Source of the DNA: Thermococcus sp. CX2
Lineage (GTDB): Archaea > Methanobacteriota_B > Thermococci > Thermococcales > Thermococcaceae
Length of the DNA: 64,000 nt
Direction of reading: 5' to 3'
NCBI RefSeq assembly: GCF_012027555.1
Contig: NZ_SNUQ01000001.1
Span: 124,001 to 188,000 of the forward strand
Shown here piece after piece: positions 7,016 to 54,111 of this stretch. How positions within the stretch are numbered: position 1 is the stretch's first letter; every line of letters begins with the position of its first letter. Made by a program: the position numbers and the translations under genes. The notes beneath the pieces are model-generated. The model was not told the origin of the DNA, did no database searches, and saw only the letters and a program-made list of their open reading frames with translations.

Positions 7016-7963
7016 TCAGCTCAAACTAAAGTCAAATCCCCTCGCGAAGGTGTAGGCTTCTCTAAGCTCTGGCCTCTCCTTGAGGAAGCGGAGGATGTAC
7101 TGGCCGCAGTTCGAGCCGATGAGGTTCTCCCTCGTGTCACCTACCGATATAATGACGTCGTAGCCGAGCCTCTTTAAATCGTCCACGAACTTCCTGTGCT
7201 TTATCGGAAGGCCCGTCTCAAGGTCAACGTCGTTGGTGAGCTTATTCTTTAGCACGCTCACCGTCGGGTTGAGCGGCGTTATCTTGATGAGGAAGTATTC
7301 CTTCGGGAAGTACTCGGCTATGACCTCTGTATCGGCCTCGTTCTCCCTCGCTAAGGCGAAGTTGAGCGTAATCTTCTTGCCGCCCTCGTCGTAGAAGGCC
7401 TTTCCGTACTCGGATATCCTCTCGAAGTCCCACTTCCTTATCGGGATTATCTCGTCCCTCTGCTTCGGATTGGTGGAGTGTATCGAGAACTGGAGCTGGA
7501 AGTTGGTTGGAAACATCTTCTTCTTGAGCTCGAGGAGGGCCTCGAAGAACTTATCGGTTCCTATCGGGGCAACGGTGGAGAGCGACGGGTGGAAGTTCTC
7601 GTAGCGCTCGCCCAAAATGCGCATCGCCTCTATGACGGCCATGTTGAAGCTCGGCTCGCCCATGCGCGCGAACTGCACCTTGAACTTCCTGGTTTTCGGC
7701 TTCCCGTTCCAGCGCTTGCTTATCGGATACTCAATCTGCTCGAGGAGCTCATCAACTGTAAGTCTGCCCTTGTAGAAGAAGCCAGCGTCGCACATCTTAC
7801 AGCCCACGGGGCAGCCGTTGAGCGATGAAACTATGAGCACCCACTTTTCTTGCGGATTGTAGGTCGGAACCGACTCCACAAACTCCACTATGTTGCCCTT
7901 CGAAGTTTTTCCGATGTAAACGACCGCAACGTTCGGGTCGCCAACCTCACTCAGTATCTCCAT
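7016..7963 (-). CDS. RlmN-like radical SAM protein
   Basis: A 315-residue radical SAM enzyme. The cluster-binding motif is CPVGCKMC with Cys51, Cys55 and Cys58. Further on, FARMGEPSFN resembles the MGxGEP-type motif of RlmN/Cfr, and Asn285-Cys286-Gly-Gln-Tyr matches the site of the methylatable cysteine in RlmN (xxCGQL). RlmN makes 2-methyladenosine in rRNA and tRNA, so an RNA adenine methylation role is plausible, but this archaeal branch is uncharacterised as far as I know. It overlaps the upstream flavoprotein gene by 17 bases and is the last gene of a three-gene operon. Confidence 0.85.
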   Translation of the reverse strand: MEILSEVGDPNVAVVYIGKTSKGNIVEFVESVPTYNPQEKWVLIVSSLNGCPVGCKMCDAGFFYKGRLTVDELLEQIEYPISKRWNGKPKTRKFKVQFARMGEPSFNMAVIEAMRILGERYENFHPSLSTVAPIGTDKFFEALLELKKKMFPTNFQLQFSIHSTNPKQRDEIIPIRKWDFERISEYGKAFYDEGGKKITLNFALARENEADTEVIAEYFPKEYFLIKITPLNPTVSVLKNKLTNDVDLETGLPIKHRKFVDDLKRLGYDVIISVGDTRENLIGSNCGQYILRFLKERPELREAYTFARGFDFSLS

Positions 7964-8762
7964 ATCTTTCCCTCCTCCATATGATCATGGCGGTCTTTAT
8001 GCCGTCGGCTATGCTCAGGGCGGTCTGCCTGTAAATCCCGTTCTTCACGTCGCCGACGAGGAAAAGGTTATCATCCTCAATCTCTTCGACGAGCTCGACG
8101 TTGGGAACCCTGCCTATCGCGCCGAGCACCAAATCAACCTCAAAATCGCCAGCGCTGGTCTTGGCTAAAAGCTTTTCTCCCCGCTCGATTTCCCGGAGCT
8201 GTCCCCGGAGAGTTGTTATGTTCGGCCTCTCAGAGACGAGCTTCTGGAGATAAGGCAATGCTTTGGGCTCGCTCCTCATGAGAATTATTACCTCATCGCT
8301 CATCTCGCTCATGGTCATGGCGTAGTCAAAGGCCACATCGCCGCCGCCAATGATGAGAACCCGCCCGTAGTGCCGCCTCGGAACTTCAGCGACGTGGTAG
8401 ATTATCCCCTCGAAGGGAAGCTTTCTCGGTCTCGTCCCCGTCGCGACCACGAGGTATTTGAAGCGGTAAGTTCCTTTGTCCGTTTCGACCTCAAACAGCT
8501 CGCCGGTCTTTCTCACGGCCTTGACTTCCTCGTAGAGGATTTTCAGGTCGTATTTTTTGACATACTCCTCGAGGATTTCGACGACCTTTTCACCCTTGAT
8601 TCCGTCGGGAAAGAACATGGTGTTCTCCACGGAGTAGGCGTTCCTTATCAGCCCCCCGATTCGGTCGCGCTCGAAAATTACACTCCCAATGCCGTAGCGC
8701 TTGAGCTGGACTGCCGTCGCTATGCCGCCGATTCCAGCCCCGATTATCCCGACGAGAGCCAT
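7947..8762 (-). CDS. FAD/NAD(P)-dependent oxidoreductase, thioredoxin reductase-like
   Basis: A 271-residue two-dinucleotide-domain flavoprotein. GAGIGG at residues 8-13 binds FAD; a second glycine-rich loop, IIGGGDVAF near residue 146, binds NAD(P)H; the C-terminal LVGDVKNG is the second FAD-contact motif. The redox-active CxxC of true thioredoxin reductase is absent, so electrons must go to another acceptor. ATG 8762 has GGAGGTG upstream. It overlaps both the cysteine hydrolase before it (19 bases) and the radical SAM gene after it (17 bases), which implies translational coupling. Donation of electrons to the radical SAM partner is an attractive but unproven role. Confidence 0.85.
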   Translation of the reverse strand: MALVGIIGAGIGGIATAVQLKRYGIGSVIFERDRIGGLIRNAYSVENTMFFPDGIKGEKVVEILEEYVKKYDLKILYEEVKAVRKTGELFEVETDKGTYRFKYLVVATGTRPRKLPFEGIIYHVAEVPRRHYGRVLIIGGGDVAFDYAMTMSEMSDEVIILMRSEPKALPYLQKLVSERPNITTLRGQLREIERGEKLLAKTSAGDFEVDLVLGAIGRVPNVELVEEIEDDNLFLVGDVKNGIYRQTALSIADGIKTAMIIWRRERYGDTE

Positions 8763-9376
8763 TCCAACACCTCCGAGAGGAGCGGCGTAACCGCGAAGCC
8801 GTGGGAGAGGTTTCTGAGCGTCGCCTCGTGGAAGAACCTGTTCTGGGTCAGTGTCCCGTCAACGGGAAAGACCACCCTAAAGCCCCTCACGAAGGCCTCC
8901 CGAGCGGTCGTCTCGCAGCAGAGGTGGGTCATGACGCCGGTGACGATTACGGTCTCCACGTGGAGTTTCCTTAGAATGCCTTCAAGTTCGGTTCCATAGA
9001 AGGCATTGTAGGTGCTCTTCTCGATTACGGTTTCGGCAAAGGGCCTGAACTCCCCGAGGAGCTCGTTCATCGGATCGTCCCTTTTCATCTCGTCGCCCCA
9101 CCAGTGGGCCATGTTGCCCCCTTCGTGGTAGTGGCGCGTGAAGATTATTGGGACTCCGAGCTTCGAAGCTTCTCCATAGAACTCCACCAGCCTCGGAACG
9201 AACCTTCTGGCTGAGGGCAGGTACGCCTTGCTCTCCTCGCTCAGGAAGTAGCGCTGAAGGTCTATCGCCAGAACGGCGGCCCTCTTGAAGGGCCGTATCT
9301 TCTCCCACTTTCTCTGCCTGAAGTACCGCTCCCTCATCTCCAAGATAAAGTCCTCGGTGAAGTAGTCTTCCTTCAT
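8744..9376 (-). CDS. Isochorismatase-family cysteine hydrolase
   Basis: A 210-residue member of the isochorismatase/nicotinamidase family. The likely triad is Asp39 in AIDLQRYFL, a lysine in the IEKSTYNAF segment, and the nucleophile at Cys153 or Cys154 in VMTHLCCETTA. The family hydrolyses amides or vinyl ethers of small metabolites; the substrate here is unknown, and true isochorismate chemistry is unlikely in this organism. It is the first gene of the operon with the flavoprotein and the radical SAM enzyme. Confidence 0.88.
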   Translation of the reverse strand: MKEDYFTEDFILEMRERYFRQRKWEKIRPFKRAAVLAIDLQRYFLSEESKAYLPSARRFVPRLVEFYGEASKLGVPIIFTRHYHEGGNMAHWWGDEMKRDDPMNELLGEFRPFAETVIEKSTYNAFYGTELEGILRKLHVETVIVTGVMTHLCCETTAREAFVRGFRVVFPVDGTLTQNRFFHEATLRNLSHGFAVTPLLSEVLEWLSSG

Positions 9377-9399: not shown

Positions 9400-10206
9400 T
9401 TAAAGATTTATCCCCCTCGTCATTACCCCGTCTATGACCACTGTCGAGCCGAGCATGTACTCTGCCTCATCGCTCAGGAGAAAAGCTACGAGTGAGCCGA
9501 GCTCGTCCCATCTGCCGGTTCTGTGGAGGGGCGTTCTGCCAAGCACTTCCCGCTCCCAGGTCTCCTCAAAGGTCTCGCCCCTCGACTCGGCAACGGCCTT
9601 GAGGTTCTCCCGTGCGCCAGGCGTATCGAAGCTGCCGAGCAGAACGCTGTAGGCCCTTATTCCGTGCTTTCCGTATGTTCTTGAAACGCTCTTCGCCAGC
9701 TGAACAAGGCCGGCCCTCGTAACGTCCGCCAGAACCAGCGGTGGCATTGGCTCCTTTATCGAGACGGAGTTGAGGTAAACGAGCACTCCCTTTCTTTTCC
9801 CTTCAAGCCACGTCTGGACGAGGAGGGTCGTCAGGTAGCCTGGGGCAACTGCGTGGAGCTTCGCGGCCTCAATCCAGTCATCATAGCCCGCCTCGTGGAG
9901 GAGGCACGGCTCGCAGCGGACGTTTCCGGCATTCCAGACGAGGGCATCAACTCCACCTAAAAGCTCCCGGGACTCCTTGACGAGGTTCTCCAGGCCCCGC
10001 TGGTCGCAGAGGTTGGTCTTAACTGCGTAGACTTCTCCGAAGGGAGAGAGCTCGTCGAGGGCTTTCTTCAGGTTCTCCTCGCTCCGTGAGCTTATAACGA
10101 CTCTCGCGTTCCTCTTCAACAGTTCCCGCGCCACGTTGAACCCTATTCCGCGTGATGAGGCCGTGACTATCACACCCAGGCCCTTGAGGTCTATCTCCAC
10201 GCTCAT
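9400..10206 (-). CDS. Short-chain dehydrogenase/reductase, atypical active site
   Basis: A 268-residue SDR-fold protein. The cofactor loop TASSRGIG is at residues 15-22, WNAGNV supplies the NAG motif, and the catalytic-type serine is in LNSVSIKEP. The usual YxxxK pair is not visible: the aligned stretch reads VLADVTRAG, with no tyrosine and arginine for lysine. Related divergent SDRs are known, so it may still reduce a sugar or keto substrate, or only bind NAD(P). ATG 10206 lies about 26 bases after a minus-strand TATA box (10225-10236), so the message is probably leaderless. It diverges from a GltD-like gene across a palindromic operator. Confidence 0.85.
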   Translation of the reverse strand: MSVEIDLKGLGVIVTASSRGIGFNVARELLKRNARVVISSRSEENLKKALDELSPFGEVYAVKTNLCDQRGLENLVKESRELLGGVDALVWNAGNVRCEPCLLHEAGYDDWIEAAKLHAVAPGYLTTLLVQTWLEGKRKGVLVYLNSVSIKEPMPPLVLADVTRAGLVQLAKSVSRTYGKHGIRAYSVLLGSFDTPGARENLKAVAESRGETFEETWEREVLGRTPLHRTGRWDELGSLVAFLLSDEAEYMLGSTVVIDGVMTRGINL

Positions 10207-10264
10207 GATCCTTTCTTCGCCCGGGGATTAATAAACGTTGGCTGTCATTCTGACGAAGATTACC

Positions 10265-10286
10265 CGAATTAGGGTAACCTAATTCG
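10265..10286. promoter_or_regulatory. Palindrome with TTAGG-N4-CCTAA core (DtxR/IdeR-like operator)
   Basis: Perfect nine-base arms CGAATTAGG and CCTAATTCG surround GTAA. The core TTAGG-N4-CCTAA is the same as that found in front of feoA in this window and resembles the half-sites of DtxR/IdeR/MDR1-type metal regulators. It lies between the divergent SDR and GltD-like promoters and could control both. Regulator identity is inferred. Confidence 0.6.
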
Positions 10287-10326
10287 TCTCATCGTCGGTG
10301 TTTCGAGAGAAAACAACTTAAGGTGC

Positions 10327-10341
10327 AAAACCTTCGGTTTT
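10327..10341 (+). promoter_or_regulatory. Small stem-loop in the leader of the GltD-like gene
   Basis: AAAACC-TTC-GGTTTT forms a six-base-pair hairpin about 36 bases before the GTG start. It could be a leader structure or chance; its A/T-rich stem would be weak at high temperature. Confidence 0.25.
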
Positions 10342-10376: not shown

Positions 10377-12472
<2,096 letters not shown>

Positions 12473-51813: not shown

Positions 51814-53790
51814 TCAAAAACCCAGGGCAATGCCGATGTGCCAGACGACTATCCCAACAACCGAGGCAAGGGCTATCATGTAGAACACCGTAAAGGCGGC
51901 CCACTTCCAGCTGCTCTCGGCCCTTATCGCGCCGATGGTGGCTATGCACGGAACGTAGAGGGTCGTTACAAGGGCGAGCACGTAGGCCTGAAGGGGCCTC
52001 ATGATGCCGACTATCGCTTCCTCGCTTCCGTAGATTATCCCGTAGGTGGATATAACGTTCTCCTTGGCGATTATCCCGAAGAGCAGGCTGACAGCAGCTT
52101 TCCAGTCCAAGCCCATCAGCCCTATATATGGCTCGAAGAACTTGCCGAGTCTTTCTGCGTAGCTACCTCCGGTTCCGATCGGTACGGGGTAGGTGCTCAA
52201 GTACCAGATGGCTATTGAACCGAGGAGTATTATCGTCCCGGCCTTCTTGATAAACTCCTTACTCCTTTCCCAAGAGTGGAGCAGGAGGGTTTTCCAGGAG
52301 GGGACGAGGTACTCGGGCAGCTCTATTATGAAGGGGCTCTCCTCCCCTTTTATCACAAACCTGCTGATGACCCAGGCCATCAAGAGCGCGAGGAGTATGG
52401 AGGTGGCGTATATGCTTACCGCCACGAGGGCCTGACGCTCCACGAAGAAGGCCCCGGCTAGGAAACTTATAACGCTCAGCCTAGCACTGCACGGGATGAG
52501 TGGATTGACGAGCATGGTCAGCAGTCTATCCCTCTCGTCGTCGAGGGTTCTCGTGGCCATCACCGCTGGAACGTTGCAGCCAAAGGCAAGGACGAGGGGT
52601 ATGAAGCTTTTCCCGGAAAGCCCGAACTTGCGCATAATCCTCTCCATAACCACCGCAGCCCTCGCCATGTAGCCGATGTCCTCGAGCAGGGACATGGCAA
52701 GGAACAGGAGGAACACCAGCGGGAAGAAGCTAAGCACCGAGCCAACTCCTGCTATCACTCCATCGACCAGAAGGCCGCGTAGGGTTTCGTTCGCTATGTG
52801 GGGCGCGAGCCACTCGCCAAAGCTCGAGAAGGCCTCGTCGAGCAGTCCCTGGAGGGGCATTCCAAAGGCAAACACGAACTTGAACATTAGATAGAATACT
52901 CCAAAGAGGGCAATGAGGCCATAAATCGGATGAGTCAAAACCCGGTCGAGCTGGTCGCTGAAGGTCTCACCCTGCTCATGGGAGTACCTGACGAATTTAT
53001 GCATTAGACCGTCGATGAACTCGTACTTCTGACTGGCGATGATCAGATCCATTGCACGCTTGTAGCGCTCTTCGACCTCGCTTATATGGGTCATTATCTC
53101 GTCAAGCTTTTCACCGCCAAGGTGCCTCAGAACGAGCTTTATTACCTCCTCATCCCTCTGCAGGAGTTTGATGGCAAGCCAGCGGAGGTTGTACTTCTCC
53201 GCCAGGGAGGTCCCGCTGAGAACCTCGGTTATGTGCCGGATCTCCCTCTCAACCTCCGGATCGTAGGTTGGAACAACAGGCTTGGCCTTCAGCTCTCCGT
53301 TCGCCATTCGGTATATCTTTTCCTTGAGTTCCTCGATGCCGATGCCCTCCTTAGCACTGAGGAAAACCACCGGAACTCCAAGGACTTCCTCCATCTTTTT
53401 GACGTTTATCTCAATGCCCCTCTTCTCCGCGAGGTCTATCTTGTTGATGGCTACGATAACGTTGTCGAGGCCCATCTCGAGTATTTCCATTGTAAGAAAG
53501 AGGTTCCTCATGAGGGCGGTTGCATCGAGGACGTGGACTACAACGTCCGCACTCCTCTTGAGCAAAAAATCTCTCGCGACAAGTTCATCGATGGAATGGG
53601 CAGTCAGGGAGTACGTTCCGGGCAGATCTACTACTAAAAACCTCTGCCCACGGTATTCAAGGATTCCTTCCTTTTTCTCGACGGTCACGCCGGGCCAGTT
53701 GCCAACGTGCTGCCGCATTCCAGTCAGTGAATTGAAAATCGTGGTCTTTCCGACGTTTGGGTTTCCGGCCAAGGCAACGATCTTCATCAT
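51814..53790 (-). CDS. feoB: Ferrous iron transporter FeoB
   Basis: A 658-residue FeoB. The N-terminal GTPase has G1 GNPNVGKTT near residue 9, switch II DLPGTYS near 54 and G4 NKID near 115; the membrane domain holds two Gate motifs, with PLVLAFGCNVPAVMATR near 395 containing the conserved cysteine, and about ten helices. It imports Fe(II) across the cytoplasmic membrane. Start at one of two consecutive ATGs (53790, 53787) after AAGGTG. It follows feoA and precedes the FeoC-like gene. Confidence 0.95.
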   Translation of the reverse strand: MMKIVALAGNPNVGKTTIFNSLTGMRQHVGNWPGVTVEKKEGILEYRGQRFLVVDLPGTYSLTAHSIDELVARDFLLKRSADVVVHVLDATALMRNLFLTMEILEMGLDNVIVAINKIDLAEKRGIEINVKKMEEVLGVPVVFLSAKEGIGIEELKEKIYRMANGELKAKPVVPTYDPEVEREIRHITEVLSGTSLAEKYNLRWLAIKLLQRDEEVIKLVLRHLGGEKLDEIMTHISEVEERYKRAMDLIIASQKYEFIDGLMHKFVRYSHEQGETFSDQLDRVLTHPIYGLIALFGVFYLMFKFVFAFGMPLQGLLDEAFSSFGEWLAPHIANETLRGLLVDGVIAGVGSVLSFFPLVFLLFLAMSLLEDIGYMARAAVVMERIMRKFGLSGKSFIPLVLAFGCNVPAVMATRTLDDERDRLLTMLVNPLIPCSARLSVISFLAGAFFVERQALVAVSIYATSILLALLMAWVISRFVIKGEESPFIIELPEYLVPSWKTLLLHSWERSKEFIKKAGTIILLGSIAIWYLSTYPVPIGTGGSYAERLGKFFEPYIGLMGLDWKAAVSLLFGIIAKENVISTYGIIYGSEEAIVGIMRPLQAYVLALVTTLYVPCIATIGAIRAESSWKWAAFTVFYMIALASVVGIVVWHIGIALGF

Positions 53791-53800
53791 GGCGGACACC

Positions 53801-54028
53801 TTAGAGCTTTCTTACCATGACCTTGCTCGCCAGTCCCCTGCCTATTGCGAACCTTGCCCCTCCAACGGAGAAGATTATTGGCCCCATCGAGTGTGATTCG
53901 ATGACCTGAACCATCGCCCCGGGACTAAGCCCCATGGAAACTAACCTCTGCCTCGCGTAGTGCCCACCTGCTATGTTCACCACGATTCCCTTTTCTCTCG
54001 GCCCCAGGGCGCTTAAAGGTACAATCAT
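53801..54028 (-). CDS. feoA: Ferrous iron transport accessory protein FeoA
   Basis: A 75-residue SH3-like FeoA domain, with LSALGPREKGIVVNI, RLVSMGLSPGAMVQVIE and ARFAIGRGLASKVMV covering the whole fold. It supports FeoB at the membrane. GGTGAT four bases before ATG 54028 sets the start, so the longer frame to 54037 is rejected. Regulatory palindromes lie immediately upstream. Confidence 0.93.
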   Translation of the reverse strand: MIVPLSALGPREKGIVVNIAGGHYARQRLVSMGLSPGAMVQVIESHSMGPIIFSVGGARFAIGRGLASKVMVRKL

Positions 54029-54039
54029 GTGCATCACCG

Positions 54040-54053
54040 TTAGGTTATCCTAA
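54040..54053. promoter_or_regulatory. feo operator 1: TTAGG-N4-CCTAA palindrome
   Basis: TTAGG-TTAT-CCTAA lies about five to eighteen bases after the predicted feo transcription start, where a bound repressor would block initiation. It has the half-site of DtxR/IdeR-type iron regulators. Confidence 0.65.
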
Positions 54054-54077: not shown

Positions 54078-54090
54078 CTTAAAAAGCTTT
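54078..54090 (-). promoter_or_regulatory. BRE/TATA of the feo operon
   Basis: On the minus strand AAAGCTTTTTAAGG gives a TATA element centred near 54084, with transcription start expected near 54057. Confidence 0.6.
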
Positions 54091-54095
54091 GGTGA

Positions 54096-54111
54096 GCCTA
54101 ACAAAGCCTAA
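54096..54111. promoter_or_regulatory. feo operator 2: GCCTAA direct repeat
   Basis: Two GCCTAA copies, 54096-54101 and 54106-54111, lie one helical turn apart just upstream of the feo TATA box. With operator 1 they bracket the promoter and may both bind the same metal-dependent regulator. Confidence 0.5.

Follow-up and report, generated by a model that had tools for sequence, protein, structure and literature searches.

A TTAGG-N4-CCTAA palindrome marks a predicted DtxR regulon in Thermococcaceae and recurs at a divergent SDR/GltD-like promoter

We observed a palindromic motif, its conservation and its co-location with dtxR genes, and together these point with high confidence to a DtxR-family protein as the reader of the feo operator and of a wider regulon in Thermococcaceae. 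A further copy of the motif, between divergent genes for an SDR-family protein and a GltD-like flavoprotein, probably belongs to the same predicted regulon. We analyzed a 64-kb stretch of DNA from Thermococcus sp. CX2 (the window). The exact core TTAGG-N4-CCTAA occurs there only at 10269-10282, in the SDR/GltD-like intergenic region, and at 54040-54053, ahead of feoA. The expected number was 0.05, and none of 100 shuffles reached two exact cores per window. The first-pass annotation had reported the same palindrome at these two promoters, and exact cores are indeed present at both. A two-mismatch scan of the window returned 22 matches versus 25 by chance. The signal therefore resides in the exact core, and relaxed matching is uninformative.

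The genome-wide motif search suggested in the first-pass annotation placed the motif well above chance frequency. The 1.8-Mb genome contains 12 exact sites, whereas a reversed-pattern control gave one. When the spacing was varied from 0 to 14, N4 accounted for 12 sites and all remaining 14 spacings together for nine (Poisson P ~6e-12 for the excess at spacing 4, or 9e-8 against the control background). Chance alone is expected to supply ~0.6-1.5 exact sites per genome, so about one of the 12 may be a chance match. Genus-wide we counted 432 sites versus 92 for the control, with 6-15 in each of 41 genomes, and most other genera of the family showed a comparable excess. One family genome (G086, genus g2) was not enriched (three exact motifs versus three for the control), though it has DtxR; its regulon may possibly have decayed. 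The motif was also not enriched in ten genomes from other families of the class (12 sites versus 47 for the control).

The 12 sites precede pyk (pyruvate kinase), the SDR/GltD-like pair, feoAB, and genes for a radical SAM protein, a CoA-disulfide-reductase-like flavoprotein, a ZIP transporter, Mrp/ApbC, a DHH protein, a UbiA prenyltransferase, a MinD-type ATPase with 4Fe-4S domains (beside a NifX-like protein), a DOMON lipoprotein and an AP-endonuclease-like protein. Sites from six further Thermococcus species and from two other genera mostly sit at the same orthologous promoters; those shared across species are feoAB, pyk, ZIP, Mrp, MinD-ferredoxin, radical SAM, UbiA, AP-endonuclease-like and DHH. 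Some species have extra members, namely ZnuA, a metal-type ABC ATPase, a TYW1-like radical SAM enzyme, ferredoxin, peroxiredoxins, RtcB and an M24 metallopeptidase. In some, the motif also precedes the gene for a second NifX-like protein, which is divergent from an ABC ATPase gene resembling SufC. At most targets other than the SDR/GltD-like pair, the site overlaps the start codon or lies 0-60 bp before it, often <20 bp. In three species (L101, L130 and L131), a copy of the motif stands 8-16 bp ahead of rtcB, which codes for an RNA ligase, instead of ahead of a metal gene; the L101 copy of rtcB also matches a LAGLIDADG domain. Two genomes from another family (L308 and L309) have a single exact motif preceding a gene that resembles cbiM (cobalt/nickel transport), as recognized by eye.

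At the feo locus, feoA (53807..54034, PF04023) and feoB (51814..53799) are both encoded on the minus strand. Of 61 genomes in the genus, 59 have a feoB ortholog. We gathered 38 feoA promoters by protein similarity, without using the motif as a criterion. The operator TTAGG-TTAT-CCTAA (54040..54053) was exact in 37 of them and always stood 5-6 bp ahead of the start codon. A second site with one mismatch, TTAGG-CTCA-CCAAA (54088..54101, minus strand), adjoins the feo TATA region, and its AGGCTCACCAAAG part was found again in most orthologous feo promoters. A FeoB scan of named genomes recovered eight Thermococci loci and many bacterial FeoBs; P. furiosus was not among them.

The candidate reader of the motif is the one strong DtxR-family protein in the genome (G000:C7:41282-41722). 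It contains PF01325 and PF02742, the DNA-binding and the metal-binding/dimerisation domains, and a domain search gave no SH3 match. The nearest solved structures are those of MntR (Bacillus type), likewise a two-domain DtxR-family protein without SH3. The two differ at the metal site. The ligand pattern of the genome's DtxR is D-x-C-x2-E-H, and the alignment places its Cys at the position of MntR's selectivity Glu, which we take to be the iron-type arrangement, as in DtxR/IdeR. A search for autoregulation found no exact site at the dtxR locus in this genome. All 53 good family genomes contain a single-copy DtxR ortholog, and these are 74-99% identical.

We asked whether the whole motif might instead be read by another metal regulator, such as a Fur-like or Fe-S-sensing protein. 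Because DtxR is universal in the family, its presence fails as a within-family discriminator, and several targets are Fe-S genes rather than uptake genes. The main discriminating evidence came from distant families of the class, which have few copies of the motif. Six of their 12 sites are located within or next to feo loci that have a dtxR-family gene (two in G094, three in two loci of G102 and one in G103), and a seventh precedes feoB in G101. The probability of six sites falling ≤3 kb from a dtxR gene by chance is ~8e-11. The motif also matches the published DtxR/IdeR core (PMC8464063). We therefore consider a reader other than DtxR very unlikely. A single DtxR-type regulator, as proposed in the first-pass annotation, is well supported by the conserved iron/Fe-S regulon, the universal single-copy DtxR and the outgroup co-location of motif, feo and dtxR.

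We compared the predicted operator and regulon to known systems. The 14-bp core TTAGGNNNNCCTAA is identical to that of the actinobacterial IdeR/DtxR iron box, which also occurs at iron genes (PMC8464063). Marcos-Torres et al. describe a 19-bp box and now propose the 14-bp form as the IdeR/DtxR consensus (PMC8464063). The classical box, at 19 bp, holds two dimers (PMC8464063), whereas the flanks here lack the 19-bp extension and the DtxR of our genome lacks an SH3 match. The double-dimer box TTAGGTTAGSCTAACCTAA was not found in the flanks of 73 sites, which hold little information beyond an A-rich -1/-2. Archaeal DtxR (FetR) regulons were reportedly described by Leyn and Rodionov in 2015, in which regulators of the DtxR type control feoAB along with other metal transporters, a feature in common with our predicted set. 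Zhu et al. are said to have found in 2013 that the P. furiosus DtxR, PF0851, binds the promoters of feoAB and ftr1 and represses both when iron is sufficient. A more recent prediction for PF0851 comprises 32 genes and highlights riboflavin and RNA polymerase genes, an emphasis that differs from the gene set found here (PMC6316755).

The second site in the window lies between the SDR gene (9400..10206, minus strand) and the gene for the GltD-like flavoprotein (10377..11423, plus strand). It is a 22-bp perfect palindrome, CGAATTAGG-GTAA-CCTAATTCG (10265..10286, no strand assigned to this or the other palindromes of the region), which reads CGAATTAGGGTAACCTAATTCG in the window. GTAA is flanked by two perfect 9-bp arms, the core spans 10269-10282, and we predict a DtxR-type operator. 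The start of the GltD-like gene was shifted from 10353 to a GTG at 10377 on the basis of a conserved ribosome-binding site and the alignment. The inferred TATA box of the SDR gene (10227..10237, minus strand) falls in a TAATAA block conserved in the intergenic alignment, ~26 bp ahead of an apparently leaderless ATG, and that of the GltD-like gene (10317..10323, plus strand) in a conserved TTAA block. The operator is separated from the SDR start by 62 bp and from the GltD-like start by 94 bp. It stands ~43-45 bp upstream of both inferred TATA boxes, midway between the divergent promoters, a position from which, in archaea, activation or modulation would be more likely than blocking by a repressor.

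We examined the conservation of this promoter in 30 orthologs from the genus, all of which keep the divergent pair. TTMGG-N4-CCKAA is present in 21 of the 30 orthologous intergenic regions (shuffles, 0.02); near matches occur in four further species and no match in the other five. The site occupies a right register in ten species, including the clade of our genome, and a left register in 11. In the left register the site reads TTAGG-CTTC-CCGAA and so does not follow the strict core. Both registers share a central CCGAATT half-site, and where one is intact the other is degenerate. In our genome the left copy is the degenerate one; its region holds the inverted repeat TTACCC-GAATTA-GGGTAA (10260..10277), which overlaps the operator. 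The registers lie 11 bp apart, unlike the classical IdeR/DtxR box, in which two dimers are offset by 5 bp. The pattern looks like binding-site turnover with function retained. Among the seven closest species, none of ten core columns varies, versus 30 of 136 in the region, a weak comparison at this low divergence.

The conservation data bear on whether the SDR/GltD-like site is functionless. A chance match would agree with the number of exact sites expected per genome and with genus g2, where the pair is present and the operator absent. Retention in most orthologs, with register switching, argues against it, and we regard a chance match as highly improbable. In genus g5, a GltD-like homolog occurs without an adjacent SDR and without the operator. 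The SDR/GltD-like copy looks like a younger, oddly placed and lineage-restricted member of the predicted regulon. The first-pass annotation had placed the pair under metal control. That proposal stands in part: the retained site favors it, and the absence in g2, the loss in five of the 30 orthologs and a position unlike that of other members weigh against it.

Two further conserved palindromes in the same promoter count against a simple DtxR reading. GTC-N5-GAC (10244..10254) adjoins the operator, and GTC-N5-GAY is found in 27 of the 30 orthologous intergenic regions. AAAACC-TTC-GGTTTT (10327..10341) is a perfect palindrome between the GltD-like TATA box and the predicted transcription start, and AAAACC-N3-GGTTTT is exact in 16 of the 30. 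GTC-N5-GAC elements flank the operator (10244-10254 and 10286-10296), and the intact side varies between species.

These features raise the alternative that DtxR reads the feo site and most others while a different regulator reads the SDR/GltD-like element, as a composite of GTC-N5-GAC and a DtxR-like core. The upstream position agrees with this proposal, as does the GTC-N5-GAC that adjoins GAATTAGG in 22-27 of 30 orthologs. The 11 species with a CCGAA half-site add to it: IdeR binding is lost once all CCTAA repeats are converted to CCGAA (PMC8464063), so a site with CCGAA on one side, as in these species, could be weak. However, the core, the 4-bp spacing and the GAATTAGG extension agree with the feoA operator, and CCGAA is present at other regulon promoters, namely MinD-ferredoxin and NifX-like in several species whose relatives have CCTAA. 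A search with the composite pattern recovered mainly known regulon sites, plus the MinD and NifX-like promoters that have CCGAA variants; no second promoter group with the full composite was among the matches listed. We consider a separate regulator unlikely and favor membership of the SDR/GltD-like site in the DtxR regulon.

We also examined the proteins encoded by the pair. The SDR-family protein (NF006213/PRK08340) has NSVSIKEPMPPLVLADVTRAGL at the catalytic position; Tyr-x3-Lys is missing in 30 of 30 orthologs, all of which keep LAD..RAG. The GltD-like flavoprotein (PRK12770) contains FAD and NAD(P) domains. It lacks the N-terminal 4Fe-4S domain of GltD: the protein begins just before the FAD motif and aligns to GltD/NfnL chains only from about residue 120-155 onward. 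Downstream of the SDR gene, on the same strand and separated by short gaps or overlaps (7016-9376), are genes for an isochorismatase-like hydrolase, a TrxR-like flavoprotein and an RlmN-like radical SAM protein, which likely form an operon. The first-pass annotation had suggested that the pair serves iron reduction or metallophore-type chemistry. We rejected this role because no gene or enzyme feature supports it: the SDR lacks Tyr-x3-Lys, the flavoprotein resembles GltD-type oxidoreductases with no assigned iron substrate, and the genes seen beside the pair include none for a metallophore.

Our model is that TTAGG-N4-CCTAA (relaxed, TTMGG-N4-CCKAA) would be the operator of the single DtxR-family iron sensor of Thermococcaceae, and that a dimer of this protein would occupy it at sufficient Fe(II). 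At feoAB, ZIP, the Fe-S assembly ATPases, NifX-like and radical SAM genes, the site is at or just before the gene start, which would fit repression. At the SDR/GltD-like promoter, the overlapping half-sites may let the dimer take either of the two registers, and the upstream site would more likely tune, perhaps activate, both genes than block them. A stronger version holds that iron-loaded DtxR activates both divergent redox genes through a register-switching operator with a shared half-site and represses uptake and Fe-S genes at their starts, so that position sets two modes of action. We offer this version tentatively and think it doubtful as a whole.

These results provide a testable predicted iron/Fe-S regulon for Thermococcaceae that would extend beyond uptake to Fe-S assembly ATPases, radical SAM proteins, pyruvate kinase and lipid synthesis. 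The different operator registers that species keep at the one SDR/GltD-like promoter form a natural series, which would suit the study of an archaeal DtxR acting from an upstream position.
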